A DNA stretch of 64,000 nucleotides. Source: Aquirufa antheringensis. Its GTDB lineage: Bacteria > Bacteroidota > Bacteroidia > Cytophagales > Spirosomataceae. Position 1 is the stretch's first letter. Every line of letters begins with the position of its first letter. The DNA lies in NCBI RefSeq assembly GCF_004307425.1, contig NZ_SEWZ01000001.1:249662-313661 (forward strand), read 5' to 3'. The position numbers and the translations under genes were made by a program. A model generated the notes under the pieces. That model was not told where the DNA came from, did not search any database, and saw only the letters and a list, made by a program, of their open reading frames with translations. This document shows, piece after piece, positions 14,958 to 17,583 of this stretch.

Positions 14958-15815
14958 CTACCCTTTTAAAATCCTCCCGATATCATTCGCCTTTCCTAAT
15001 TCTTCTTTCAGTTTTTCATAGCTGCCAGAAAGCATCAGGCCTTTGTATTTCAACAGGGTGTTGATGTATTCGTCCAAAACGTCGAGCAGATTCTCTTGGT
15101 TTTGGTGGAAAATTTGGCTCCAGGTTTCAGGGGAAGATTTCGCTAGACGCACGGTGGATTCGAAACCGGTGGAGGCTAGTTCGAAAATGCGGGCTTCGTT
15201 TTTTTCTTTCTCCAGTACCGTATTTGCCAAAGCAAAGGAACAGATGTGCGAGATGTGTGAAATATAGGCCGTGTGCATGTCGTGCTCGATGGATCCCATA
15301 TAGATGAGGTTCATCTCTAAGCCGCTGCGGTATAAATCTTCAATCAAAGCAACGGCAGCAGGGTCACTGAGTTCTTTATCGCAAATGACACCTCGTTTAC
15401 CCACGAACAAGCCTTGAACAGCTGCTTCAGGGCCCGAGAACTCGGTTCCGGCCATCGGGTGAGTGGAAACGAACTGAGCTCTTTTCGGGTGGTTCTTTAA
15501 AGCCTCGAAAACCGGGGTTTTGGTGGAACCTACCTCGATGATCACTTGCCCAGGTTTTAGCGCATCCAATACCGATGGAATTAAAGCCACTAACAGATCA
15601 ACTGGGATCGCGCAAACGAAGACGTCTACTTGATCGATGGCCTCTTGCCAAGAGGCGATGCGGTCAACGAGTTTTAAGGAAAGGGCCTTTTTCTGGTGTT
15701 CGGGATTGGTATCAATACCGATGATCTCGGATGCCCAGCCACTCTTGCGAAGACCGAGTGCGATGGATCCACCAATTAATCCGATACCGATGATGCCTAC
15801 TTTAGGAGATGCCAT
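14958..15815 (-). CDS. tyrA: Prephenate dehydrogenase
   Basis: 285 residues from the ATG at 15815 (MASPKVGIIGIGLIGGS), which places the NAD(P)-binding GxGxxG at residues 10-15; the frame extends to 15908 but that part lies inside the upstream gene. Oxidative decarboxylation of prephenate to 4-hydroxyphenylpyruvate for tyrosine. THPMAGTEFSGPEAA is the conserved substrate-site segment, and SIEHDMHTAYISHISH is the helical dimer-domain motif. It overlaps the aminotransferase by 14 bases, so the two are one operon under the Tyr leader at 17039-17104. No ACT or chorismate mutase domain is attached. Confidence 0.93.
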   Translation of the reverse strand: MASPKVGIIGIGLIGGSIALGLRKSGWASEIIGIDTNPEHQKKALSLKLVDRIASWQEAIDQVDVFVCAIPVDLLVALIPSVLDALKPGQVIIEVGSTKTPVFEALKNHPKRAQFVSTHPMAGTEFSGPEAAVQGLFVGKRGVICDKELSDPAAVALIEDLYRSGLEMNLIYMGSIEHDMHTAYISHISHICSFALANTVLEKEKNEARIFELASTGFESTVRLAKSSPETWSQIFHQNQENLLDVLDEYINTLLKYKGLMLSGSYEKLKEELGKANDIGRILKG

Positions 15816-16980
15816 TGCTGTGGTTTTTGATGCGATCAATCGCTTGTGAGAAAACGGATTCTTGTGCGCAAAGCGAGATACGGATGTAGCCGTCGCCTTG
15901 TGTTCCAAAGATTCCGCCCGGCGTAATGAACACCGCGTTTTCGTCTAATATTTTATCAGAAAGTGCGTAGCCGGAGTTGAATGTGGCTGAGATTTTGGCC
16001 CAAACAAACATCCCCGACTGTGCCGGATCATACACGCAATCGAGTAAATCCAATAAGTCAAATACGAGTTTCTGGCGCGAACGGTAAATGCGATTCTGAT
16101 TCTCAAACCACGCGCTGTCAGCAGAAAGAGCTTTAACGGCTGCCTGTTGCAAAGGCAAGAACATCCCAGAATCCATATTGGATTTGAACTTCAAGACCGG
16201 TGCTAGAAACTCCGCTTTCCCAAAAGCCGCCCCAATTCTCCAACCCGCCATATTGTGGGACTTCGAAAGGGAATTTAATTCGATCGCGACATCCTGCATC
16301 CCCGGAATGGACAGCATGCTCATCGGCTTCTCGTTCAGGATGAAGCTATAGGGGTTATCATTGACTAATAAAATCGCATGGCGAATAGCGAAATCGCGCA
16401 ACTCCGTGAAGAATTCCACCGTTGCTTGTGCACCGGTAGGCATGTGCGGGTAGTTGACCCACATGATTTTGACTTTGGAAAGATCACGCTTTTCTAACGC
16501 CTTTAAATCAGGTAACCAACCCGTGGAGGCTGATAATTCATAGCTTTCTACCGTCGCACCGGCTAAAGAGCAAGCCGCCGAATAAGTAGGGTAGCCCGGA
16601 TTAGGGATCAAGGTCACGTCGCCTTTCTCTAAATAGGCCATCGCGATGTGCATGATACCTTCTTTGGAGCCGATCAAGGGCAGAATCTCAGAAGCGGGAT
16701 TAACCGTAACGCCATAATGCTTCGCATAAAATGAGGCGAAAGCCTCGCGCAAAGCGGGAATACCTTGGTAACCTTGGTAGGCATGGTTGGCTGGATTTGC
16801 CGCGCTTTCTGTCAATGCCGCGATGGTCTCAGACGATGGGGCTAAGTCTGGAGATCCAATACCTAAGTTAATGATAGGTACGCCGGATTCCTTTAAAGCC
16901 GCGATCTGCTTCAATTTCTTAGAGAAATAGTATTCCTCCACGCTGTTTAAGCGGCTCGCCGCTGTGATGTGTAAGCTCAT
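15802..16980 (-). CDS. PLP-dependent aminotransferase, probably aromatic amino-acid aminotransferase
   Basis: 392 residues, class I/II fold-type I. Lys240 in LNSLSKSHNMAGWRIG is the pyridoxal-phosphate Schiff-base lysine; NYPHMPTG and NDNPY are the usual cofactor contacts. Start set at ATG 16980 (MSLHITAASRLNSVEEY); the extra 14 codons upstream are merely translated terminator sequence. With prephenate dehydrogenase overlapping downstream and a tyrosine-codon leader upstream, the likely job is transamination of 4-hydroxyphenylpyruvate (and perhaps phenylpyruvate) with glutamate. A LL-diaminopimelate-type or broad-range enzyme is the alternative. Confidence 0.9.
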   Translation of the reverse strand: MSLHITAASRLNSVEEYYFSKKLKQIAALKESGVPIINLGIGSPDLAPSSETIAALTESAANPANHAYQGYQGIPALREAFASFYAKHYGVTVNPASEILPLIGSKEGIMHIAMAYLEKGDVTLIPNPGYPTYSAACSLAGATVESYELSASTGWLPDLKALEKRDLSKVKIMWVNYPHMPTGAQATVEFFTELRDFAIRHAILLVNDNPYSFILNEKPMSMLSIPGMQDVAIELNSLSKSHNMAGWRIGAAFGKAEFLAPVLKFKSNMDSGMFLPLQQAAVKALSADSAWFENQNRIYRSRQKLVFDLLDLLDCVYDPAQSGMFVWAKISATFNSGYALSDKILDENAVFITPGGIFGTQGDGYIRISLCAQESVFSQAIDRIKNHSNGIS

Positions 16981-16983
16981 AAA

Positions 16984-17008
16984 ACAAAAAACCGACGTAA
17001 AGTCGGCT
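16984..17008 (-). terminator. Attenuator terminator in front of the aminotransferase
   Basis: On the minus strand AGCCGAC, loop TTTAC, GTCGGTT, then a T-run broken by one G. Seven pairs including one G-U. The T-run abuts the aminotransferase ATG, so RNA ending here lacks the coding region. Its 5' arm is also the 3' arm of the alternative hairpin at 17003-17038, making the two structures mutually exclusive. Confidence 0.85.
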
Positions 17009-17038
17009 GATATAATTGACAAAAAACTATATAACCGA
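17003..17038 (-). promoter_or_regulatory. Antiterminator hairpin of the tyrosine attenuator
   Basis: On the minus strand TCGGTTATATAG (17038-17027), an 11-base loop, then TTATAT, a bulged C, and AGCCGA (17015-17003). This makes 12 pairs with G-U wobbles and one bulge and takes up the terminator's 5' arm. Its first base directly follows the stop codon of the leader peptide, so a ribosome at that stop would mask it. Confidence 0.75.
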
Positions 17039-17104
17039 TTAGGCAGCGTTGTAATAACCTGCGTAATAATACCCTGTTAAATAGTTGATTGCGTGTGAAT
17101 TCAT
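17039..17104 (-). CDS. Tyrosine-rich leader peptide of the aminotransferase-tyrA operon
   Basis: 21 codons, ATG at 17104 and TAA ending at 17039. It begins MNSHAINYLTG and continues YYYAGYYNAA; six of 21 residues are Tyr (positions 8, 12, 13, 14, 17, 18), far above chance. The frame is followed immediately by the antiterminator and terminator before genes for the last steps of tyrosine synthesis. Expected action: with little charged Tyr-tRNA the ribosome stalls at the Tyr run, the antiterminator forms and the operon is read; with enough Tyr it reaches the stop and the terminator forms. The predicted promoter puts the transcription start one or two bases from the ATG, so the leader may be translated leaderlessly. 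Confidence 0.85.
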   Translation of the reverse strand: MNSHAINYLTGYYYAGYYNAA

Positions 17105-17108
17105 ATGC

Positions 17109-17138
17109 CAAAGGTAGGAAAAATTTGCTTTTATGCAA
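17109..17138 (-). promoter_or_regulatory. Promoter of the tyrosine leader and operon
   Basis: On the minus strand TTG (17138-17136), 19 bases, TACCTTTG (17116-17109): an exact match to the Bacteroidota consensus TTG-N19-TAnnTTTG. The -33 part overlaps the last codons of recX. Transcription should start near 17104-17105. Confidence 0.75.
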
Positions 17139-17583
17139 ATAGAGGCTTCAATAGCTCGCGAACGAGGGAGGATTCGTATCCTTTAGAGAGGCCAAAGTTA
17201 TAACACTTCTGATACCGTTGTGGCGAGGTCCCCGTTTTAATCTCGTCTCTTTTCTTCTGTAAAATAGCACGAGCTTTTTCGATGTAATCCGCATCATCGA
17301 TGCCATCCCAAGCTGAGGCTAAAAGAGAAGCTGAAATGCCGCGCTTGCGTAATTCGTAATTGATTTTCGTGCGTCCCCAGCTTTTCTGATTGAACTTCGA
17401 GCGGACGAAGATTTCGACAAAACGCGCTTCGTTCAGGTAGTTGTTTTCGCGGAGCCACATTAAATACGAAGGGAAATCAGCCGGCGAAACCTCAAAAGTC
17501 TTCATCTTCTGCTCCAGTTCTTGGACGCATCTTTCCTGGTAGGCGCAATAGCGGGCCAGCTTTTGGAGAATCTCGCTATTCAT
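17131..17583 (-). CDS. recX: RecX-family regulatory protein
   Basis: 150 residues, the usual size of RecX, all-helical with the conserved tandem three-helix repeats (LWLRENNYLNEARFVEIFV-like segment, then KSWGRTKINYELRKRGIS). RecX binds the RecA filament and limits recombinase activity. It lies ten bases after hemA on the same strand, not beside recA. The 3' end holds the -33 element of the tyrosine leader promoter. Confidence 0.85.
   Translation of the reverse strand: MNSEILQKLARYCAYQERCVQELEQKMKTFEVSPADFPSYLMWLRENNYLNEARFVEIFVRSKFNQKSWGRTKINYELRKRGISASLLASAWDGIDDADYIEKARAILQKKRDEIKTGTSPQRYQKCYNFGLSKGYESSLVRELLKPLFA

Follow-up and report, generated by a model that had tools for sequence, protein, structure and literature searches.

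What controls the aminotransferase-tyrA operon of Aquirufa antheringensis, and is the short interval ahead of it a tyrosine attenuator? We examined this locus within a window of 64,000 nucleotides, the whole stretch of DNA analysed, on which an earlier note had proposed leader-peptide attenuation, with a design departing from the textbook one. In model bacteria, tyrosine operons are run by TyrR or T-boxes, and the classic four-segment leader-peptide attenuators are those of trp, his, phe, leu, thr and ilv operons in Proteobacteria. This list is covered in part by PMC1262725 and PMC2965389 (papers are cited throughout by PMC number).

Layout and conservation of the locus

The putative attenuator lies on the minus strand and spans 17139-16981, with recX (17583-17131, minus strand) on one side and the two-gene operon on the other (Table 1). 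All the elements listed in the earlier note, which had left the strand unnamed, were recovered: promoter, 21-codon frame with six Tyr codons, antiterminator and terminator. The promoter, compared with the Bacteroidota consensus of PMC7366714 and PMC9723704, consists of TTTG (17139-17136), a 19-base spacer and TACCTTTG (17116-17109). The leader ATG (17104-17102) lies four bases 3' of TACCTTTG, and the frame ends in TAA at 17041-17039. The encoded peptide, MNSHAINYLTGYYYAGYYNAA, has tyrosine at 6 of its 21 codons (8, 12, 13, 14, 17 and 18). Of the 425 ATG-initiated frames, 15-30 codons long, that the window contains, it alone has at least six Tyr codons, the runner-up having four, and dinucleotide shuffles of the leader interval produced such a Tyr-rich frame in 3 of 5000 cases. 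As had been claimed, the antiterminator arm TCGGTTATATAGTT begins directly after the TAA, and the T-rich tail of the terminator, ending at 16981, abuts the aminotransferase ATG at 16980.

Table 1 Features of the tyrosine leader and its operon in the window
Feature	Position	Strand	Basis
Promoter, Bacteroidota primary-sigma type, TTTG-N19-TACCTTTG	17109..17139	minus	Sequence; overlaps recX 3' end
Leader ORF, 21 codons + TAA, predicted leaderless	17039..17104	minus	Sequence
Segment 1, candidate anti-antiterminator 5' arm, inside leader ORF	17076..17092	minus	Pairs with 17035-17019 in whole-leader minimum-energy fold
Segment 2, directly 3' of stop codon; 17038-17025 is the antiterminator 5' arm	17019..17038	minus	Fold; pairing in alignment A2, 92.3%
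Segment 3, antiterminator 3' arm; last six bases common to terminator 5' arm	17003..17017	minus	Fold, 14 bp + one bulged C
Intrinsic terminator, AGCCGAC-TTTAC-GTCGGTT + T-rich tail up to aminotransferase ATG	16981..17008	minus	Fold and conservation
Class I/II PLP aminotransferase, 392 aa, presumed aromatic	15802..16980	minus	PF00155, E 9.7e-59
tyrA, prephenate dehydrogenase, 285 aa	14958..15815	minus	NF006307, 332 bits (cutoff 295); PDH_N + PDH_C

A covariance model of the leader run against the whole genome returned the window leader as its sole strong match (E 9.5e-21). The next match (E 0.16), considered as a second copy and rejected, sits within an ORF judged AraC-like on inspection, and three further matches were weaker (E 3-5). 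In the alignment inspected by eye, the GCAGG of leader codons 15-16 (within 17062-17042) was nearly invariant across the genus and had a potential partner in every clade, a CTGC/CCTG/TTGC-like stretch close to the frame end, possibly forming a pause hairpin.

Family models assign to the downstream genes the synthesis of the amino acid whose codons fill the leader, with a presumed substrate for the aminotransferase. The best NCBIfam models for this enzyme are LL-diaminopimelate aminotransferases, with scores under their cutoffs, and we presume its aromatic role from the linkage to tyrA and pheA. The first 14 bases of tyrA lie within the aminotransferase frame. The same genome has a stand-alone pheA at another place, directly downstream of the tRNA genes for Ser, Pro and Arg (L137, 2408-2717), and no leader was seen before it. 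Each of the two DAHP synthase genes is preceded by one weak aromatic frame (only frames were considered).

Of the 38 genomes of the genus, 36 yielded the aminotransferase, and all 36 loci carried the arrangement TTTG-N19-TAnnTTTG-N4-ATG, a leader of 20-21 codons with 5-7 Tyr, and the terminator. Codons 8, 13 and 14 encoded Tyr in all 32 distinct rows from the genus and group g27, as did codon 12 in 29 rows, the other three having no such codon; a YYAG core was invariant in these 32 rows. A search for the aminotransferase in the family covered 194 genomes, 168 of them with a match. Outside the genus, all 24 loci with a 60-77% identical aminotransferase (nine genera) had a Tyr-rich leader followed by a terminator; these leaders are 15-21 codons long, 4-8 of them Tyr, and differ largely in sequence. 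A Tyr-rich leader, a hairpin and a T-run were thus present at 60 of 60 examined orthologous loci (52 distinct leaders, ten genera), and the enrichment in the codon of the end product, 6 of 21 in the window, was found at each. No such leader was detected in any of 22 loci examined from a group of the same family with aminotransferases of about 50% identity, sampled from the approximately 120 remaining family matches (near 50% identity among the matches listed); tyrA was seen in 16 of those 22 stretches.

The gap between promoter and leader ATG was four bases at 44 of the 60 loci and five at 8, whereas it was 18-20 at six g28 loci; no box was found at one locus and a doubtful one, 24 bases away, at another. 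Because the -7 box of Flavobacterium psychrophilum, a distant relative, lies at -12 to -5 (PMC9723704), a four-base gap would be expected to place the A of the leader AUG at +1, and we predict from the sequence that the leader ORF is leaderless. Leaderless or very short 5' ends are reported within the phylum: about 5.5% of F. psychrophilum mRNAs are leaderless, in a phylum described as having no Shine-Dalgarno sequences (PMC9723704), and about 3.7% of Bacteroides thetaiotaomicron 5' UTRs are shorter than 10 nt (PMC7366714). The trpL ORF of Sinorhizobium meliloti, which begins at the 5' end of its transcript, offers a precedent (PMC7298713). A genome-wide scan for leaderless leaders found the exact promoter pattern 7 times and a relaxed form 15 times, where the reversed pattern used as control occurred 2 and 5 times, and no other amino-acid leader was recognised in it. 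Seven of the 15 open frames were longer than 160 aa, which suggests that ordinary genes use short 5' ends too. These seven long frames start 3-6 bases 3' of the promoter match (G000: L229, L230, L231, L232, L234, L235 and L237), some of them being UvrA-, DnaX- or GrpE-like by eye, a hint that this genome makes mRNAs with little or no 5' UTR.

Hairpins and the four-segment question

The predicted antiterminator pairs TCGGTTATATAGTT (17038-17025) with AATTATAT-C-AGCCGA (17017-17003); this helix, TCGGTTATATAGTT with AATTATATCAGCCGA, comprises 14 bp at -10.6 kcal/mol (z -5.1). The terminator hairpin AGCCGAC/GTCGGTT (17008-16990) was computed at -9.2 kcal/mol (z -3.5). The two predicted structures have an arm in common and are mutually exclusive, as in an attenuator. 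Pairs were counted in alignments A1 (the 32 distinct rows from the genus and g27) and A2 (13 leaders), with alignment A3 (six rows) and locus L073 excluded. In A2, 99.1% of terminator cells were paired and three pairs had changed on both sides, in seven cells; shuffled alignments reached three pairs in 6 of 500 cases and seven cells in 0 of 500. In A1 the terminator showed no covariation (500 of 500 shuffles gave as many changes; 83.9% paired), a count spoiled by the rows of one clade and of g27, which are out of register. The antiterminator was paired in 92.3% of A2 cells, compared with 29-42% when the arms were slid, and had one pair changed on both sides; 18 of 500 shuffles scored as high for covariation. 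The alignment of relatives that had been suggested as a check thus bore out the Tyr codons, the antiterminator hairpin and, in A2, the covariation of the terminator, but not the latter in the misaligned A1.

Pairing between cognate segments was also compared with pairing across lineages, in 19 chosen representative lineages out of the 52 distinct leaders (60 loci). Segments 2 and 3 of the same leader paired at a mean of -14.8 kcal/mol, versus -12.1 for non-cognate combinations, the cognate being better in 17 of 19 lineages (2 of 20,000 permutations). The window lineage was one of the two exceptions, at -7.5 against a non-cognate mean of -9.1 and with 12 of 18 non-cognate partners as strong, a score for which the segment boundary used trims part of its own 3' arm.

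Segment 1 corresponds to leader codons 5-10. When the whole leader is folded to minimum energy, it pairs with segment 2, and the terminator forms. An equilibrium folding model, with the ribosomal A-site set at a given codon, predicted for the window leader a terminator probability of 1.00 when untranslated. With the A-site on Tyr 8 the predicted value is 0.83; it falls to 0.20-0.23 on Tyr 12-14, rises to 0.69-0.74 on Tyr 17-18 and is back at 1.00 once the stop is reached. Across 22 representatives, this probability fell below 0.5 at some Tyr codon in nine; in the other 13, including variant L006 of the window's own clade (at least 0.97 at its Tyr codons), the terminator stayed above 0.5 at every Tyr codon, so that a kinetic argument, in which the antiterminator forms first, is needed for them. 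In two g28 representatives the free leader itself gave just 0.61 and 0.82.

The earlier note had supposed that the antiterminator competes with the terminator alone, in three segments; with such a design an untranslated leader would read through. Some observations fit this reading. Column covariation of the 1:2 helix was weak, with no excess in A2 (234 of 500 shuffles) and, in A1, a single pair with changes on both sides (7 cells) and pair 21:78 broken in 13 of 32 rows. Synonymous recodings of genus leaders often matched the native 1:2 pairing (140 of 200 were as strong for the window leader), and the helix might simply come with the Tyr codons. Against the three-segment reading stand the whole-leader fold described above and the comparison of lineages, in which cognate 1:2 pairing averaged -14.4 versus -10.7 kcal/mol for non-cognate segments (0 of 20,000 permutations) and exceeded the mean of non-cognate partners in all lineages but g1c and g2e (17 of 19). 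The sequences of both segments vary between genera. Base-shuffled ORFs were as strong in only 9 of 200 cases for the window leader and in at most 17 of 200 for nine of eleven leaders, the remaining two giving 35 and 46, and the terminator probability of the free window leader, 1.00, compares with means of 0.72 for base-shuffled ORFs and 0.90 for synonymous recodings. A three-segment switch is thus unlikely in our judgement, and the departure from the classic design is not supported. We tentatively favour the classic four-segment design; the evidence for 1:2 pairing is weaker within Aquirufa than across lineages.

Leader codons and operon content in the Bacteroidota

The survey of other named Bacteroidota comprised 66 further loci (80 minus 14 repeats of the Tyr group) with flanks of 1200 bases. 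In 49 of them pheA lies directly upstream of the aminotransferase, and 43 of these 49 loci had at least one aromatic leader with a terminator, giving 50 leaders in all, with two at each of seven loci. Codon usage in these 50 leaders was F270:Y180:W22, as against F42:Y339:W0 in the 55 leaders of the pheA-less Tyr group (55 of its 60 loci passed the same strict filter). None of the 17 loci lacking a recognised adjacent pheA had a leader, some of these stretches ending early upstream. On the reverse strand, taken as a control, two leaders turned up for the pheA-first loci and none for the remaining sets. All ten upstream genes tested by Pfam were prephenate dehydratases (PheA), after which result a profile built from 11 PheA sequences was adopted for the pheA calls. 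It superseded a tblastn classification with the genome's own PheA, which missed divergent PheA proteins, called just 34 of 122 loci pheA-first and put leaders in 40 supposedly pheA-less loci. Looser leader filters flagged 60 of 80 loci, chance frames included, and were kept out of the main count.

At the level of the order, 16 of 20 loci were pheA-first with no leader seen within about 900 bases upstream, which was all that the stretches covered; among 20 upstream stretches of order-level loci fetched separately, 13 had an aromatic leader and terminator, L123 being left out of this number (its terminator is 183 bases from the leader). Locus L113 (561-780, genome G508), one of the four that are not pheA-first, with two tandem mixed Tyr/Phe leaders and no recognised adjacent pheA, is an exception to the rule that links codons to operon content. 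The loci are related, and the Bacteroidota counts are therefore not independent. Judged from sequence, the codons sensed appear to follow the enzymes encoded by the operon. We consider it reasonably likely that these leaders form a Bacteroidota-wide family of aromatic attenuators, which read Phe and Tyr (and Trp) where pheA heads the operon and Tyr alone once pheA has gone, are leaderless in the Aquirufa branch and stand two in series in Hymenobacter- and Chitinophaga-type operons.

Units of the latter kind, two Phe/Tyr leaders with terminators in series before pheA-aminotransferase-tyrA, were seen at L117, L118, L119, L150, L151, L162, L164 and L181, all Hymenobacter- or Chitinophaga-type, and the tandem of L113 precedes aminotransferase-tyrA. 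By eye, no evident TAnnTTTG promoter separates the units of L113, L117, L118 and L119.

Proposed mechanism and relation to known systems

The proposal of a tyrosine leader-peptide attenuator is strongly supported by its retention at every orthologous locus examined in the ten genera and by leader codons that follow operon content, the match between sensor and product and the conservation being the best evidence for its function. A tyrosine-responsive, ribosome-mediated transcription attenuator probably controls the aminotransferase-tyrA operon. We infer its start site, the stalling, the response to tyrosine and the role of the 1:2 helix as follows. Transcription would start at the leader AUG or within one or two bases of it, so that the ribosome would load on a leaderless end. 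With ample Tyr-tRNA it would reach the stop codon and cover the adjoining segment 2, leaving segments 3 and 4 free to pair, and RNA polymerase would stop before the aminotransferase AUG. With scarce Tyr-tRNA the ribosome would halt at Tyr codons 12-14 and hide segment 1, segment 2 would pair with segment 3, and transcription would go on into the operon. In an untranslated leader, segment 1 would pair with segment 2 and the terminator would form, as in the classic four-segment logic.

Codon-level stalling has to be weighed against sensing of free tyrosine or of the nascent chain, as by a TnaC-like arrest peptide. The peptide is short and conserved within the genus and g27, with the invariant core noted above, yet between genera the peptides differ widely save for their Tyr runs, and the partial replacement of Tyr by Phe and Trp in pheA-containing operons is what codon sensing predicts; an arrest peptide is very improbable. 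A T-box, or another riboswitch binding tRNA or a metabolite directly, has next to no chance of being the regulator: T-boxes do control tyrosine genes of other bacteria (PMC1262725), but no T-box, Rfam amino-acid leader or Bacteroid-trp RNA (RF01692), nor any other Rfam family, matched at gathering score in the window and 20 loci of this and related operons, and the transcript ahead of the antiterminator is almost wholly leader ORF. The terminated leader RNA or its peptide might also act in trans, like rnTrpL/peTrpL of S. meliloti. Termination should release a discrete RNA of about 115-120 bases, and the predicted position of the leader ORF at the transcript end resembles that of S. meliloti trpL (PMC7298713); we regard this addition to codon-reading attenuation as quite unlikely.

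A codon-reading tyrosine switch with a leaderless start would, if true, show how ribosome-polymerase coupling operates in Bacteroidota, a phylum with a promoter type of its own, and the natural series of leaders from Phe plus Tyr to Tyr only lets the evolution of attenuator specificity alongside operon content be tested directly. The Tyr-only specificity, the tandem units in relatives and the rewriting of codons with operon content are the points of interest. No tyrosine-only leader-peptide attenuator was found among the open-access titles listed; an earlier mention in Bacteroidota is possible, for instance in the review by Lopatovskaya et al. (2010) cited in PMC4833913. The type of switch is classic and most likely scarcity-responsive, its tyrosine version being apparently undescribed in the literature searched.

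The earlier note had presented attenuation as a system of Proteobacteria, where it is indeed known; it is not confined to them (PMC9723704, PMC1262725). Leader-peptide attenuation has been proposed from transcript mapping for amino-acid operons of F. psychrophilum, of the same phylum as Aquirufa, operons that the excerpt of PMC9723704 leaves unnamed. A 2005 list drawn from a prediction database includes putative attenuators before tyrA operons, among them pheA>hisHb>aroA-aroQ>tyrA of B. thetaiotaomicron (PMC1173090, Table 7); these concern the same kind of operon and are likewise predicted, and the rows listed give no leader peptide, no sensed amino acid and no close relative of Aquirufa. The Bacteroid-trp RNA is a cis-regulatory motif of Bacteroidetes (PMC2864571, Table 1), with a link to trp suggested by its name, and had no Rfam match in the Aquirufa leader. 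S. meliloti trpL has its ORF at the very 5' end of the transcript (PMC7298713), as is predicted for the Aquirufa leader, and differs in reading Trp, in belonging to an alphaproteobacterium and in the known trans action of rnTrpL. Like classic four-segment attenuators, the Aquirufa leader has an ORF enriched for the codon of the amino acid that the pathway makes, an antiterminator and a terminator that exclude each other, a stop codon placed so that a ribosome that has finished would block segment 2, and a candidate 1:2 helix; unlike them, it has tyrosine specificity, a Bacteroidota promoter, a predicted leaderless start and a biosynthetic AUG directly behind the T-rich tail.
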